DNA of 64,000 nt from Polytrichum commune (lineage: Eukaryota > Streptophyta > Polytrichopsida > Polytrichales > Polytrichaceae). Below are positions 886-25,140 of the stretch, piece by piece. Below the pieces are notes generated by a model. That model did not search any database. It was given only the letters and a program-made list of their open reading frames with translations, and was not told the origin of the DNA. The stretch lies in assembly GCA_950295325.1 (NCBI GenBank), contig OX485809.1, positions 20,520,001 to 20,584,000 of the forward strand, in the 5' to 3' direction. Made by a program: the position numbers and the translations under genes. Position 1 is the stretch's first letter, and the number at the start of each line of letters is the position of its first letter.

Positions 886-2907
886 TCACTCTGCTGTTGA
901 CTTCTTCAGGTAGGCAATAAGATCTGCTCGCTCTTGCGGCTTCTTCAAGCCAGGGAACATCTTTTTTGTGCCAGGAATAAACTGCACACATCGAACACAA
1001 CAAATGTTCACACTTGCAAACTGAACACTTCTGAAACAGTGCAAATAAACCCATCTATACAGATAGATGCCTTTCGTACAGTCCAGGCTTCTCAATCATA
1101 AAAGCTAGACGGCAAATATCACGGAGCTGAAATTGATATGTTCGTCATTTGACGACCATAACTAGCTACGAAAAAATGAACCACACAAAACACCGCTTTT
1201 TGTGGCATGGTAATCAAAATTGCTGTCACCATAGCAACCTCACCTTCTTAGGATTTAACAAATACTCGTAGAGATGCTCCTCACCCCACTCCACAGCCTT
1301 GTCCTTGTTGGCTTTGGAGTAAGTGTAACCGGCAGTAGTTCCGGATGTCCTTCCGAACAAGCCATGCAAGTTTGGTCCTGGAAGACACGACACCCAGGAG
1401 TCAGGAATAATTCGTTGTTCCTCAACATATCGTCATAATTAGTAGGTTTTCAGGTGCAAACAAAGAACAGCACCAAAGAGAATCTGGACACAAAACCTGC
1501 TACAAAAACGGTGTTTGGTACCCACTGCTTGCCTCCTGTGCTCAAATGGATGACCCTATTTCTACTTCGCGAGAAGATCATCAGATGACTTTTCTAAAAC
1601 ACGACTTTGAAGTTATAGCTTCGATGAAATTCTTCCAGCACAGCAATCAGTAATATCCCAATTATTGCACACCAATCCTTTGCAGACAATATAATTTAAA
1701 TCCCCACGGGTCAGACATATCCTAATGCTCATAATGAACATCCAACTCTGCCGCAAGAAAGGAACATTAAGGTAATCTCGTATTGGAACACAGAAAAGGT
1801 CCATAGACTTTAGAAGTGACGAGGCAAGAAGCGCTAGGCATTGAAACGAACTACAGACTAGAGACGACAGTATAAGATGTGCATGCACATTTACTGGCAG
1901 GGTTTGTACTATGTGCAATCCTTTTTAAAGAAAAGAGAAAGTGTTATCGTGTGGTACTGGGAATACCTGGTTGGATGTCCTGTTCAATGCTTCAAGATGC
2001 TTATTCTGGTGTAGGAAAACAAGTGATTTACTGAGGTGGTTTATTTCATGTTTAAGCAAAACATTAGAGGAAACATTAAAGAGATATATATTCGACATCA
2101 ACCAAAAACTACTATCCCGGAAAGAGTTCGACTTTTTCCATACCCCGTCCCGCTATCTGCCCAGCCAGGTGATCTTTGCTGCACGTACTACCTTTTCCAA
2201 GGTAATTCGAACGATCTTCACAAAATCATATTTAAATGGACTAACTTCTGGGCGATCGGCACTCCCAATTAAGTTTCTGGACGATGGGCATTGACTCAAC
2301 TATATGTGCTCAAATCTCAACCAACTATCCGCCCAGAGATTCAACAATCTCGGTTGTGAAGCTAAAAAATCAACTTCTGGGATGAGCGACGACGTGCGCC
2401 AAACAGTGACAAAATCTCCCTGGAGCTTAAAACCAACTTGCTGCTCGACCTCTACTCTCACTCGTTGCCATGCTCTGAACCACGACCGTGAATGCTCCAG
2501 AGAAGATATTAACTTGGACAAGACGAATTATCTCTAGGCACAGAATGACCGAATCTCTGAAAAAAAAATCCAGCGATTTCGCCGAAAGACACCACGCTAA
2601 CTCCTCCAAAACAACTTCAGTGCCACTTCGTGCAATGTCGACTTGGATGCACCTTGTTAGGGAACAGCAACACCTCGCAGAGGATCTCCAATGAAGGCAG
2701 TCCTTCTCTGTGAGCACCGAACCAAAACTATAACCTGGGTGGAGTACTACTTAGCTAAGTCGTGTATCCCAGACAGACGCAGTTACCTTGCTTGTGGCCA
2801 GCGGCCTTGTCAACGGCGTGGCAAAAGGCGCACTTGGTTTTGAAGATCTCCTCGCCCACCTTCCCATTCCCCTTGGGCGCCTCCGACCAGCTTTCCTTGG
2901 ACGCCAT
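886..2907 (-). CDS. Cytochrome c, copy 1, with Lys at the axial Met position
   Basis: Three exons, 2907-2787, 1377-1244 and 981-886, all with GT/AG borders, give a 116-residue protein. Cytochrome c carries electrons from complex III to complex IV in the mitochondrial intermembrane space and binds heme through CXXCH. Here CAFCH is at residues 26-30, [10 protein letters not shown] follows, and the C-terminal helix AYLKKSTAE is intact. The start is fixed by MASKE and by a shared leader with copy 2. The anomaly is [11 protein letters not shown] at residues 86-96: normal plant proteins, and copy 2, read GTKMVFPG. Residue 92 (Met80 in horse numbering, the sixth heme ligand) is therefore Lys (AAG), and Met is at 93. 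Exon 1 has six other replacements relative to copy 2, including Q28F inside CXXCH. Exon 2 encodes exactly the same 45 residues. I am sure of the family; whether this copy is functional is open. Confidence 0.9.
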
Positions 2908-3215
2908 CGCCGACGATCCACACCAAATCCGAGCTCCCCTCCCGCAGCACTCTCATCTGTCTAGTCACGTCTCTCTCGCATTCTCAAAGTCAAGCTTATT
3001 ATATGACCCCTAGGGGCGGGAAACTCCCTTACCGCTCCGCTTGTAGATTCTTGTAAGGGTTATTACGCATACTAACTTATGCACTAAACCCTAAACCCCA
3101 TCACTAGTTAGAACATGGCTTTTCCGAACACTTGGCTTCGACACGGATTTTTTGCGTGTCGAAATCCACGCTCTTTTGGTTGGACCACCACTAGAGCCAT
3201 TTTATCATGTGGGCC
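2908..3215 (-). promoter_or_regulatory. Promoter region of cytochrome c copy 1 with telo-box and site II motif
   Basis: A double telo-box, AAACCCTAAACCCC, lies at 3086-3099, about 180 bp upstream of the ATG. A site II motif, TGGGCC, lies at 3210-3215, about 300 bp upstream. Telo-box and site II (TGGGCY) motifs are known in promoters of plant nuclear genes for growth and respiration, including cytochrome c. The ~25 bp just before the ATG are nearly identical to copy 2, so the leader was included in the duplication. Regulation is inferred from motifs only. Confidence 0.45.
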
Positions 3216-3929
3216 GCCACTAAATTTGTGCTATAAATCTTCTAGATTATAGTCACATTCTTGTGGGACATGGTGCCGTCTTGTTGTTTTGTTGGCCATG
3301 CAAAAGATCTATGAAGTTTTTGTTATGATTTTGGTTATTTATTAGATATAGATTCCATTCACGTTTACTCATAATATCTAGGTCCCGTGTATATTATTGA
3401 GTGTACAATATGAAGGAATTTTATCTTCTCTCTTTGTTTAATTTAGAGACCTTCTTGCTGTAGTGATCTATTTGCCTCTCCTCCAAAGTGTTATATTTTT
3501 GGCTACTCATTCAAGCTTACACACTAGATTCCATGTTTATTATTTAATGTCCATGAAGGAATCTTCTATATTTGTTTAGTTTTACAGATCATAGATTTAG
3601 ATGTGAGTCACCTTCCTAAGTAATTACTAATGTGAGAGAGAGGGAATTACCACATACAAGTGTGTCTTTCATTCATCCAACATAGAAGCACTGAAAGAGT
3701 AAATGGTCTACATGTTATTATTTTTATTTATTTAGGGACCAAATTTAGGTTTGGAGACCCCAAATTAACCTAGTGTAAGTCATTTGAGATGAATCCACCA
3801 AACATCTATAGGGGACAAGTTTTTTTTATGTTGGATGGATGAGAGGTACTTTACTTGGTAGATTCTTACAATACAAGGTGAAAGCAACCTTTACATATAG
3901 AGTGCTTCAAAGCCCTCTTTCTGCACACA

Positions 3930-16432: not shown

Positions 16433-18327
16433 ATGGCGTCCAAGGAGAATTGGGCGGAGGCGCCCAAGGGAAACGAGAAGGCTGGGGAGAAGATCTTTAA
16501 AACCAAGTGCGCCCAATGCCACGCCGTCGACAAGGCCGCTGGGCACAAGCAAGGTAACTGGGTCTGTCTGGGTTACACAACATATATCAGTAGTACTCCA
16601 CCTAGGTTATAGTTTTGTTTCGGTGCTCACAGAGAGGGGCTGCCTGCATTGGAGATCCTCTGCGAGGCGTTGCTATTGCTAAACGAGGTGCGTCCAAGTC
16701 GACATTGCACGAGTTGACACTGAGGTTGTTTTGGAGGAGTTAGTGCGGAGTCTTCAGGCGACTTCGCTAGATTTTTTTTCCCAGAGAGTCGGTCATTCTG
16801 TGCGTAGAGATGATTCGTCCTGTCCAAGTTAATCTGTTCTCTTGAGCATTCACGTTCGTGGTTCAAGAGGATGGTGACGAGTCAGACTAGAGGTGGAGCA
16901 ACAAGTTGGTTCTAAAGCTCCGGGGATATTTTTCCAGCATTTTGCGCACGTCGTCGCTCATTCCATAAGTTGATTTGTTATCTCTACAAGTGAGATAGTT
17001 GAATCTCTTGGCAGATAGGTATTTGAGATTGAGCATGTATAGTTGAGTCGAGAGCCCATGGTTAGGAACTTAATTGGGAGGCCATCACCAAGACGTTAGT
17101 TTGTTCATGTAAATTCGATTTGGCGGAGATCACTTGAATTACCTTGGAATAGGTAGTACGGGCAGCGGAGATTACCTGGCTGTGCGGATAGCTGGACGGG
17201 GCATAAAACAGTTGAGGTTCTTGGATTTTTCGAACTATTTCCGGGATAGTAGTTTGGTTGATCCCGAGCAACTCTAGAATGTTTCCAGTGAGGGCTTAAA
17301 CACGGAATGAAGTGCCTCAATAAATGACTATTTCTTAAAGCTCCAGATTGAGCATCTTGAAGCATTGAATAAGACATTCAGTCAGGTATTTCCAACACCA
17401 CACCACAAGACATTCTCTTTTCTCCAAAGAGGATTGCACATAATTCAAACCCTGGCAGTGAATATCCGTGAATACATAGCTAGCAAAACTCGTGCTACTG
17501 TCTCTAGTCTGTAGTTCATTTCACTGCCTCGTACTTCTTCACTTCATTACATTGCTGTTTGTTACGTTGGAAGTGTTTCATCTAAGCTAGTACTTCAGAA
17601 GTCGTGGTTTGTAAAAGTTACCTGGTGGTCTTCGCGTGAAGTAAGATAAGGTTATTTATCTGAGCGCAGGAGGTAATCAGTGGGCGTCAAGCTCTCTGGT
17701 TAATGTTTTTGTAGCAGATTTTGTGTCCGTTTTTCTTTATCGAGATGTTAGTGCTGTTTTCTGTGCAGACCTGAAAACACACGAACTATGAAGACTGAGG
17801 AACAACGACTTATTCATGACTCATGAGTGTCGTGTCTTGCAGGACCAAATTTGCATGGTTTGTTCGGAAGGACTTCCGGAACTACCGCCGGTTACACTTA
17901 CTCCAAAGCCAACAAGGATAAGGCCGTGGAGTGGGGTGAGGAACATCTCTACGAGTACCTATTGAATCCTAAGAAGGTGAGGTCGCTACGATGACAGCAG
18001 TTTTTGGTTACCGTGCCACAGAAAGGTGGTGTTTAATCTGATTCATTATCAGAGTAGCTATTTGTGATCGTCAAATTGATGAACATATGTGATATTTGCC
18101 ATGTAATTGTTATGATTGAGACGGTATGAAAGGCGTCCCTCACGGGAAGTGCCTCTTGGCAGGTATACATGAGGTGTTTAAACAGTGTTGAGTATGTGAT
18201 TTTGAACATTTGTTGTGTTCGATGTGTGCAGTTTATTCCTGGTACAAAAATGGTATTCCCTGGTTTGAAGAAGCCACAAGAGCGAGCTGATCTTATTGCC
18301 TACCTGAAGAAGTCAACAGCGGAGTGA
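16433..18327 (+). CDS. Cytochrome c, copy 2, canonical
   Basis: Exons 16433-16553, 17843-17976 and 18232-18327 join in phases 1 and 0 at GT/AG borders and encode 116 residues. The product is the soluble mitochondrial electron carrier between complexes III and IV. Visible signatures are the N-terminal extension [13 protein letters not shown] typical of plants, the heme site CAQCH at 26-30, [20 protein letters not shown], the axial ligand Met92 in [15 protein letters not shown], and the C-terminal helix ending KKSTAE. Length and all ligands are normal, so this is probably the main working copy. It is divergent to copy 1, 13.5 kb away, and the introns (1,289 and 255 bp) are recognisably homologous to those of copy 1 (1,409 and 262 bp). 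It is tail-to-tail with the SMXL gene. An upstream MITE now forms part of its promoter. Confidence 0.97.
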
Positions 18328-20209: not shown

Positions 20210-23200
20210 TTAAGGCCCCCCAGGCACAACTTGTCCCCCGTCATTGTGTCGCACCTTTGCCTCTCCGGTGAGATGGAGAGTTAGCTGCTGTGTAGAACCA
20301 AACAGAATGACATGTGGTAAAGAAACTTCCTCCTCAAAGGCATTATTGTCCTCACTGGAATGATCTGGTTCTGCAACTATCTTAATCACCCGTTTATCAC
20401 AGATTGGGATATCCATGAAGGCTCTTGTGAGGCTCTTGAAAAAGGTATCGATCCAAAAGTCAAATTCTTGCCGCCCATCAGGCATCTTCCACACACATGA
20501 CACTATGTGTTCCAAGAGATGGAGGTCAATTTCCAGATCAGCACCACGAGGGATGAGATTTTCAAAAGATTTGCCAAACTTCTGAAGTATCTCCATCGCA
20601 AGCCCTTTGAAATCATAAGGGTTGAGCACCACAACGGAGTTGAGCAAAGCACAGAACTTATTAGAGAGTGCCCCTGAGAGAGCCTTCTCATGCTTCGCCA
20701 CCTCATCCAACTCCTTGTTAATATGGCCATCTGTCCAGCTACTCTGGATTCCTTCACTGGGCCAATAGTCCACTTTATTTTCACCAAGCGCAAGGTTCAG
20801 GTCCAGACACAATGACTGCCTGTCACTTGACTTCCTGCGCTTCTCCCCTGAGCTCGAGTTAAATTCACAATGCAGAAGTGCTTGAGACTTTCGTTTGGGA
20901 ACCCAGCAGGGAACTTCGGCTACTGGGTTCACTACATTGATGACATCACGAAGCTTTCCACCACGGTTATCAACAATGCGAATATTATTTTGCCCCTTGA
21001 AGACGACTTTCTCGGTGTGTGTATCCTCCACCATAACACGTATACTGCTCCGCTTCATGGCAACCAGCTTCTCTTCTGAGAAGCACAAATCGTCTGACTC
21101 ACATTCTAGGCTTGAGCTCTCAACCCCAATATTTGTGGTCATTAAGACAATGGCATTGCTGAAGCTCACCTCACGGGCATTTGACCCAGCAAGCTTGCCT
21201 CGGTCCATGGCCCTGATAACCTTATTCCGTGTCACATTGTCTGCATAATCAATATCCTCCAGCAATATAACTGAGGACGGGTTCAGTCGCACAGCCTCCA
21301 CTAGTCTGTCAAGAGTGGGTGGACCTCTGTATCGTGAGCCACTAGCATCCACTTCCATTTTGGCCGCCAACCCATCCGCAAATCCCAGACAGAGAAAGCT
21401 GCTCTCGTCACCAAAGACGTGCTCAGCAAGAGCTTTTGCAATGGCGAGCTTTGCAACTCGGTCAGGCCCCATTAAGAGAATCCATGTGCCTGTCTTTGAA
21501 ATCGTCCCTCTTATAGTGCCCACACCAACCCGACACTTTAGGACAGTTTCTGCAATTGCCTCCACAGCCGCTCCTTGCCAGGGAACGCGTGCCATGAGGC
21601 CCTTGCAGAGGCCCTTAAGATTATTGACTATACAATCTTTACCACCTGAAGATCTGTTGGATTCAATAACACTGGTAACCCAGGGTTGAACTTTGGTTGA
21701 TAGGTTCAGCGCAGGTTGCCAAGGTAATCTTGGAGGTGAGGCGTTATCAGTGCTAATAACAACGCTAACCAAATCCTTCTGCATGGTGGATTGCATAAGC
21801 CAATGTGGCTTGCCACTATTTCTCATCCCACTCAGTGAGTGGCATGAAGGGTGATCTGCGAAGGCCTTGATATGTGATCTTGGAGTGGCAGCAATGGAGC
21901 TGCAGTGGACGGTATCCACCACTCTACCAAGGGCTAGGTCTGTATCTAGGGGTGCCAGGAACGCATCCTGGACCGAAGTTCTTGTGGGACTGTGTGGATC
22001 TTCTTGATCATCTGGTCCAGAAGCCACACTACTCCCATCCTTTGGTGAGCCAATGTCGGGCCCGCACAGAGCCTCTAAAATCCCATTAGCACCCAAAGAA
22101 ACTGCATCTTGCACCTGTACCATGCTTGCCAGAGGGCTAACTCCACGTACTCCTGAAGAACTTAGTGTGTAGTCTAGGAAGCTTGATGGTGTCTGCGCGA
22201 GCTGGTCAGATTTTGACAAACTCAATGTATTGTTGTCAGATCCGGCCCATGGGCCAAACATTTCTGGATTCAACCCTGCACAGTCAAAGATCATCAACAA
22301 TAATCATGGGCCAGTCCAAGCTAAAACTCCACCAACAGTCATTGAACTGTACAAACAAGAGTCAAGAACTACCAGAAAATGGAAAAAGAATGAATCATGA
22401 AACAGAGCTACAGTCAGTGGGCACAAGAGAAAGTGCAAGCCGTACACCAGTGCATAGATGTCTCTTATTTGTTCTTACCGCAGGGCTTACAATCCATGCC
22501 ATGGGGAACCACAGATAATCGACTTAAGGACGACAGCTCTGGCCTTGAATGAGCTGGAACTGGCAAAAACGTATGCATATGTAACTTCCTGCATGTGGCT
22601 TGCCACTTGCGTCGAAGCTTCAGCAACTTCTGGATGATTGACTGGTTCTTGACCTATTGTATGACATTCAATTTGAAATAAGATACATCAGCACCCATGA
22701 GGATAGCCCTTAAGGATATGAATGTCAGTAGCCTCTTCAGACCAGCCAAGAGAAAGATAGAAAGATTTTGCATCAAGGAAGTACTTGAACTCTTGATGTT
22801 TGAATAAGAAAAAATATTCATGCACCTGTGTGTCAACAATCACAAGTGACAATACAAAACCATACCTGGCTCTTGCCACTTGAATAGACTCCATCGCTTG
22901 CAAGGGAGAACCATTCAGCTGGAGCCAGTTGCAATGCCAGCCTCTCATGTTCATGAACAAACCTCCGCTCTTCTTCAAACTTTGCCAGGCACTCTGGACA
23001 GCATTGGATCTCCTCCTCCCCTTCGTCATCTCCAACAGAACCACTTTCTACTGCCATAGGGAAGGCTCGAGAAGAAACACCATGCATGGCCCACATGGGG
23101 TTAGCTGTCTCTCCATCCTCTGCCGGCCGGGAACTACTTGAGAATCTGATAAGCACAAAGAAATAACCCATCAGATCAAATCATCACATTTACCAGTACA

Positions 23201-25085
23201 GGTGTGCTAGTGAAGCGGGAGGTTCAATAATATGGGCAGCCTTGCACTTGCTAGCTCAATTTCGAGGAACTGCCCATAAACCTATGATGCTACATAATAG
23301 GAACAAGCTGAGGATAATAATTAATGCACAATCCAACTTACCTCCCTCCAGGTCAGCTAATAATCCAACAACGCCAAGACTTACCTTAGAGATAACTAGC
23401 GAAGATTGAAGATGTGAGGATTGAGGACCTGTTCAGGGAGTAGGACTGGAGTGCTGCCCCAATTTGGACAGGCTGAAGTCCCCAATCAGCTCTCAAAGCT
23501 GGGTGGTGAGCCTGTAGTCGAGTAAAGATTTGAGGTGTAGCCAGCCCCACAAACCAGAGTCTTTCATTGGCATGCCGAACCAGCAACCGACCCAACTCTG
23601 TTGCTGTATGGTGAGCAGGGCAGAAGTTGGAAGGACCCTTCTTCAGCTGCATGGGTTCTGCAAGCCACTGCAAATCCCCAATGTGCAGTATGGCACCTGC
23701 TGGCATGCACTCCCCAACGATCTTGCCAAGCTCAACAAGCTTCTGTTCCATCTCCAAACTGCTACAGAAGCCAAAAGATGAGGAGGATAGCTGTGGATCC
23801 AGAAACTGTAATCCCTGAAGTGCTGATGGCACATTACTATTCTTGATCCTTGATGCCAGATGTCTCACCACCTCATTTGTCTCCACTGGACTTTCCCCAA
23901 TCAAGATGACATTTCTGTTTCTAGAGCTCAAAAAGATTTTCAAAATCTTGTCTATATCCTCTTCACATGGCTGGGACACGATCCTTAAATCCCCAATGTT
24001 GCCTGCAAGATTTGGAGTTCTGCATATCACGTCTCTCTGCTCGAAATTATCTGTGTGAAAATCTGAGTGCTGCCATGAGCTTGTAGAATGAGTCTGGTTT
24101 ACCGAACCCCCAGGAAACTGCACTGACCCTTTTGTGTCTGTCTCTTCCTGTGTCACACAGCTGCTGCCATGAAAGCGACCTGATGCCAGAAAAGCACAAC
24201 TATGAGGTGATACGCAATACATTCAGAATAATGTGCACAGGTAAATACCCACACAAAAACCAGCAATGTCTTGACCATCATACTGCACTTAGGTACAGAA
24301 ACAAGCCTTCTCTGTCCTGCCTCAAATACTCCACCATGACTAACCAAACCACATCAACAACTCAATACATCCACCAGTGGCTAATGGCACATAAAAGCCC
24401 TCAAATATTTCAAACACATGAGCTCCGGGAGGTGGAGGCGTAAGAAAAATCCGGGAGTTATATGACAGCCCAGGTGCAACCATTCGGACTCGACAGAACA
24501 TTTACCTTGCGAGAGCAGGTCCAGACTCAGTTTAGCACCCTGTTGCTTGTGGACGGACAATGTTTGAGTCAAGCCAGTTTGTCCCACACCCGAACCATCC
24601 TCAAGGTTGAACTTTATGTTGGTGCTTGAGAAACCCGCCTCCCTCATCACGCGGCTCACACTGGGATCGTCAAGGATTGAGAGGATCAGTTGATCAATCT
24701 CCACCTTGACAGCTAGCAACGGCGATTGCTGATGCTCAGGGCAACCGCGACGTTGGTGGGCGTGAGCCCGCTTGAGGGCAGCCATCAGCGCATTGGACAG
24801 CACCGGCTGGCTGGAGGCAGCCAGTGCCGATTGTGCAAGATGGTCCAGTGCAACCGTGAAGCAGACCTGTAGAGCCCGACACTGCGGTGTTTGGGAGCTG
24901 TCGGGCTGCGATAGCATGCACGCTTGTCGCAACCGACTCCCAGCATGGGTGAGCAACATTGCCACGACATGGAGGGGCTGGACCTGCGGGTGTCCCCTCC
25001 TGCGGGCCTCTGTGACCGCATGCCTCAAGATTTGTAATGCTGCTGGTGTTAGCAAGTGTTGCACTGAGTTTGCACCCCCACGCAT
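20210..25085 (-). CDS. SMAX1-LIKE (SMXL/D53) family transcriptional repressor
   Basis: Five exons, 25085-24506, 24179-23429, 23145-22866, 22653-22479 and 22275-20210, join in frame and give 1,283 residues (Arabidopsis SMAX1 is about 990). SMXLs are nuclear ClpB-like corepressors of karrikin/strigolactone signalling, removed through D14/KAI2 and the F-box protein MAX2. Seen here: a double Clp-N domain, residues ~1-165, with NALMAALKRAHAHQRRGCPE and SILDDPSVSRVMREAGFSS; a degenerate first ATPase domain in exon 2 with ILHIGDLQWLAEP; CCPECLAKFEEE in exon 3; KLRRKWQATCRKLH in exon 4; a second ATPase-like domain with P-loop GPDRVAKL at 865-872; an EAR motif LDLNL at 1086-1090 for TOPLESS binding. 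The degron motif RGKT is RGPP at 912-915. The start ATG gives MRGGANSVQHLLTPAA, matching the family. The exon 2 donor chosen (AG|GTCCTC) is weak but is the only one found that keeps the frame. Confidence 0.92.
23383..23390 (-). other. Strong alternative splice donor overlapping a stop in SMXL exon 2
   Basis: On the minus strand TCTAAG|GTAAGT is a near-consensus donor 44 bp beyond the in-frame donor at 23,429/23,428. The in-frame codon just before it is TAA (23,388-23,386). Using this donor, or retaining the intron, would end the protein after about 457 residues, keeping Clp-N and the first ATPase-like domain and losing the second domain and EAR motif. Confidence 0.55.
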
Positions 25086-25140
25086 GCCCACGTAACTACT
25101 CCGTTCCTCGGATGCCCGTCCCTCTCTCCACTACAGCCTC

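Follow-up and report, generated by a model that had tools for sequence, protein, structure and literature searches.

In a 64,000-nucleotide stretch of the Polytrichum commune genome (the window) we find a cytochrome c gene, copy 1, that encodes Lys in place of the axial heme ligand Met80. Our best explanation, toward which we lean with some reserve, is that copy 1 arose by duplication of a mitochondrial cytochrome c gene and has diverged while remaining functional, with a predicted low-potential Lys/His heme and probably a non-respiratory role. The more demanding reading, a land-plant cytochrome c that selection has kept, locked in the Lys/His low-potential state, with a redesigned docking face and work outside respiration, is one that we put forward tentatively, as possible.

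Copy 1 lies on the minus strand, has three exons separated by GT-AG introns, and encodes 116 amino acids in a frame free of internal stops (Table 1). Residues are given below in horse numbering, which for the cytochrome c copies is the gene residue number minus 12, except where gene numbering is stated. A preliminary description had reported Lys for the axial Met with an ATG one codon later, and so it is: GTKKMFPG is translated from the minus strand of exon 3, with the Lys80 codon AAG at 963-961 and the Met81 codon ATG at 960-958, where copy 2, an ordinary cytochrome c gene of the same exon-intron structure elsewhere in the window, reads GTKMVFPG. That description was also right that CXXCH and the proximal His18 of a mitochondrial class I cytochrome c are present, but in taking the fold as otherwise unchanged it overlooked two replacements on the docking face, K8E (codon GAG, 2850-2848) and Q16F (codon TTT, 2826-2824), the latter turning CAQCH into CAFCH (2832-2818, in exon 1). 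We add that the gene is on the minus strand and that exon 1 holds six more replacements, these two included. The Pfam model Cytochrom_C scores 47.2 bits on copy 1 (cut-off 21.3), and Tyr67, Thr78, Phe82, Asn52 and Trp59 are kept; the Met80 of class I is missing, with Lys in its place. The marks of a pseudogene are absent, in that the introns are present and GT-AG, the frame is open, and the 351 exon bases aligned with copy 2 hold no indel (introns, 25 in 1472). On sequence grounds copy 1 is a cytochrome c paralog by descent, and its functional membership of the family is something we infer at most. A degenerate DNA pattern for PGTKKMFPG had a single match in the 408 Mb assembly, copy 1 itself, and its reversed control had none.

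Table 1. Positions in the window of the two cytochrome c copies and of the region upstream of copy 1
Feature	Position	Strand	Basis and remarks
Copy 1 exon 1	2787..2907	-	Gene model; begins at ATG; contains CAFCH
Copy 1 exon 2	1244..1377	-	Gene model; protein identical to copy 2 exon 2
Copy 1 exon 3	886..981	-	Gene model and translation; GTKKMFPG, stop codon
Codons AAG ATG (Lys80, Met81 replacing Met80 Val81)	958..963	-	Sequence and codon table
Upstream stretch up to repeat	2908..3100	-	Only the last 20-26 bases before ATG match copy 2
Dispersed transposon-like repeat	3098..3420	.	40 scored places of 77 candidates, its own included; extends past the searched stretch
Copy 2 exon 1 (ordinary cytochrome c)	16433..16553	+	Gene model
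Copy 2 exon 2	17843..17976	+	Gene model
Copy 2 exon 3, GTKMVFPG	18232..18327	+	Gene model

An exon-wise protein search of the assembly (407.8 Mb, 64 contigs) returned 15 exon matches, three for each of five genes, a count that is a lower bound because gapped stretches of the assembly might conceal more. The other four genes (copy 2, L001, L002 and L003) all carry GTKMVFPG. L001 and L002 form an inverted pair on the window's own contig (C7), near 8.789 and 8.796 Mb, and are 99.8% identical over ~1.8 kb, diverging from ~34 bp upstream of the ATG, so that either a recent duplication or gene conversion may lie behind them; L003, on contig C1, is more distant. Of the 15 matches (E 0.001), none pointed to an alternative Met80-encoding exon 3 in the neighbourhood of copy 1. 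Rice 1CCR was the best PDB sequence match, and a search of a phage collection gave no match. Downstream of copy 2, minus-strand frames with AAA_2, SMAX1 nucleotide-binding and Clp_N domains (20210-25091) probably belong to one SMXL-type gene of the strigolactone/karrikin pathway.

With L001 as outgroup for polarising the differences between the copies, all eight amino-acid differences fell on the copy 1 branch and none on that of copy 2. In gene numbering they are N6S, A8S, E15G, A17V, K20E, Q28F, M92K and V93M, the last of which, together with K20E, Q28F and M92K, correspond to V81M, K8E, Q16F and M80K of the horse protein. Six lie in exon 1 (gene residues 6-28) and the other two are the ligand site, residues 80 and 81, where two point substitutions suffice if the ancestor had ATG GTG, as in L001. 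The same two codons may instead have arisen by insertion of AAG and deletion of GTG, but that would take two indels, and the 351 aligned exon bases are free of them.

The copy 1 branch carries 14.5 synonymous and 9.5 nonsynonymous changes (averaged path counts; uncorrected omega 0.18) and the copy 2 branch 17 and 0 (omega 0), counts that differ by Fisher's test after rounding (P 0.002); between the copies dS is 0.48 and dN 0.037. When as many changes as observed were simulated under neutrality, no more than eight replacements came up in 2 of 5000 runs, and in a second simulation in 1 of 20000 runs, rising to 58 under a minimal ancestor, in which ambiguous bases were assigned so that copy 1 changes fewest; overall, 0.005-0.3% of runs reached so low a number. 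Because neutral simulations so rarely yield so few replacements, the counts indicate that purifying selection acted on copy 1 over much of its branch, although they cannot date the replacements or establish present-day constraint, and a brief recent spell of neutrality may be hidden in them. Outside codons 5-28 and 92-93, that is, in the other 90 codons, the copy 1 branch has nine changes (five with the minimal ancestor), every one synonymous, a pattern with a neutral probability of ~8e-7 (~4e-4 with the minimal ancestor) that must be read with the knowledge that the region was picked post hoc, once the data had been seen. A mutational hotspot in exon 1 was ruled out as the source of the cluster, since synonymous changes are not clustered there (3 of the 12 synonymous codons lie within codons 5-28, vs. 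six of the eight replacements). Gene conversion from a paralog was likewise ruled out, as none of the four other genes has the residues that copy 1 shows at the replaced sites.

A constrained respiratory copy could nonetheless have been silenced late and have gained M80K, K8E and Q16F afterwards, and M80K in particular may be recent and follow a loss of function. We regard this course of events as unlikely, though it is the alternative that survives best: four other respiratory copies were to spare, the replacements strike sites essential to respiration, and a repeat begins 191-205 bp ahead of the copy 1 start codon, itself a counterpoint to our best explanation. Random decay, however, should have struck the other 90 codons too, where there is no replacement, and copy 1 has no stop, frameshift or splice loss. 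In neutral simulations with the same number of changes a stop arose in 59-67% of runs, while a short decay would bring fewer changes and often no stop.

Matches to the repeat begin at ~3098-3112, and its 39 other scored places are 74-85% identical, all 40 being on contigs C1-C7. It could reduce or alter the expression of copy 1. At its edge the window holds two telomere-like repeats (AAACCCTAAACCC, 3085-3103). Site II and telo-box words occur upstream of copy 1 (-308 and -186) and in copy 2 as well; the -308 site falls within the dispersed repeat, and an exact TAGGGTTT immediately before the ATG is found in only two of the four close copies (copy 2 and L002, not copy 1 or L001), for which reasons promoter words around the cytochrome c copies are uninformative and we draw nothing from them.

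A study of lysine acetylation (PMC8634867) places Gln16, Ala50, Ala51, Lys72, Gly77, Ile81, Lys86 and lysines 8, 13, 27, 72, 86 and 87 on the partner-binding surface. Three of the eight replaced sites of copy 1 (8, 16 and 81) belong to this 11-residue set as that source gives it (P 0.028), and with the ligand site added the figure becomes four of eight in a 12-residue set (P 0.004). The docking-face changes are Lys8 to Glu, Gln16 to Phe and Val81 to Met, with docking lysines 13, 27, 72, 73, 79, 86 and 87 retained. According to the same source, K8Q lowers electron donation to the oxidase, but its binding to c1 is slightly tighter, not weaker. Variants that combine multiple Lys-to-Glu substitutions, K8E included, are described as being without electron-transport activity and having peroxidase activity 4-6 times higher (PMC11311590), which, as far as that account goes, works in favour of raised peroxidase activity as an idea for copy 1. 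Gln16 is variable outside eukaryotes, Ala being commoner (33 of 46 bacterial loci).

Those 46 bacterial loci were retrieved with copy 2 and form a biased set, as one search pattern included the Met and many loci are from Ruegeria; 42 cover site 80, with Met in 41 and Thr in one, an alphaproteobacterial metagenome-assembled homologue (L010:301-603, LVPKTRTAFAGL). The open-licence literature on Met80-to-Lys and natural variants, within what it gave us, yielded no natural mitochondrial cytochrome c with Lys80.

The Met that stands directly beside the lost Met80 invites another reading, in which the loop slips by one residue, Met81 becomes the ligand, the Met/His iron is kept and copy 1 still serves respiration as a slightly changed isoform. 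Tyr67, Thr78, Phe82, Asn52, Trp59 and lysines 13, 27, 72, 73, 79, 86 and 87, all unchanged, would suit such an isoform. Residue 81, however, is part of the partner-binding surface as listed in PMC8634867, so its side chain should normally point outward; none of the 42 bacterial homologues covering the site has Met81; and the docking face is altered by K8E and Q16F as well, all of which makes this reading, in our view, rather improbable. With one assembly to go by, one might suspect a sequencing or assembly error or an uncommon individual variant, but this is very improbable, since two codons are altered in frame and six further replacements accompany them, more than a single base error could produce.

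Candidates for the sixth ligand of copy 1 are Lys80, a different loop lysine and Met81. The side chain of Lys is longer than that of Met, and direct ligation by Lys80 would require the loop to adjust. The structure of an engineered M100K Paracoccus versutus cytochrome c-550 is tabulated as a distal Lys / proximal His heme (PMC4476040), and a review credits this protein with increased stability and 20-fold less peroxidase activity (PMC7193304). Lys-ligated yeast cytochrome c is put at about -137 to -145 mV and the Met form at ~+330 mV, calculated (PMC12188557), and a nearby lysine is stated to suffice for Lys ligation in the ferric form of the human variant F82K (PMC7139943). M80A alone is given by the last source as leading to hydroxide ligation and not to Lys, a further counterpoint to our best explanation, and a review of engineered enzymes attributes to M80A a potential drop of ~400 mV together with pseudo-peroxidase activity (PMC8398203). 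From these precedents we take it as likely that copy 1 would have a low potential in most of the ligand outcomes, with peroxidase activity depending on the outcome, raised activity being expected for an open heme site and not for a closed Lys/His heme. The preliminary description had named raised peroxidase activity as one effect that Lys at or near this position can have; the 20-fold lower activity reported for Lys-ligated M100K c-550 (PMC7193304) goes against that, and because of it raised peroxidase activity should not be the first expectation.

Set beside plant mitochondrial class I cytochromes c, copy 1 agrees in length, CXXCH, His18, Tyr67, Thr78, Phe82 and most docking lysines, and differs in having Lys80 for Met80, Met81, Glu8 and Phe16. 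With M100K c-550, as the sources present it, it has in common a Lys that replaces the axial Met in a class I cytochrome c and, by prediction, a Lys/His heme, but the former is a bacterial laboratory mutant, whereas copy 1 is natural and eukaryotic and has its docking face changed as well; the M100K chain was absent from the best 60 matches of the PDB searches. The low-potential form of Met80-bearing cytochrome c, with a lysine of the same loop on the ferric iron, is another predicted likeness, with the difference that there Met80 competes and copy 1 has no Met80; with Met80 gone, reduction could therefore not restore the Met80 bond. The Lys/His heme of NrfH is likewise a natural c heme with a distal Lys (PMC4476040), copy 1's ligation being predicted, but NrfH, as described there, is a bacterial membrane protein with multiple hemes that forms a complex with NrfA, a context unrelated to that of copy 1.

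In the mechanism that we propose for a functional copy 1, the protein would be exported to the intermembrane space, with its heme attached covalently through CXXCH, and the sixth position of the iron would be taken by Lys80 or by a neighbouring loop lysine (72, 73 or 79), upon which the potential would fall by several hundred mV. K8E, Q16F and V81M on the docking face would make it a poor shuttle from bc1 to the oxidase, and its role would be non-respiratory, perhaps as a low-potential or closed-heme sensor, a competitor or a partner-binding form. A role apart from respiration, as the preliminary description had also suggested, seems reasonable because copy 1 is a real Lys80 paralog that keeps CXXCH and His18, with its coding intact and constrained; signalling or cell death, the roles that description had in mind, would be conjectural forms of it.

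Students of the alkaline transition still ask if Lys ligation of cytochrome c arises only in vitro or under stress, or can also be a selected state. If copy 1 is a natural case, a gene with Lys fixed would stand beside normal copies in one genome and the question would become genetically testable; gene targeting is feasible in mosses (Physcomitrium). If copy 1 is truly locked in the Lys/His state, it would be a built-in alkaline conformer, in which Met ligation is irrecoverable.
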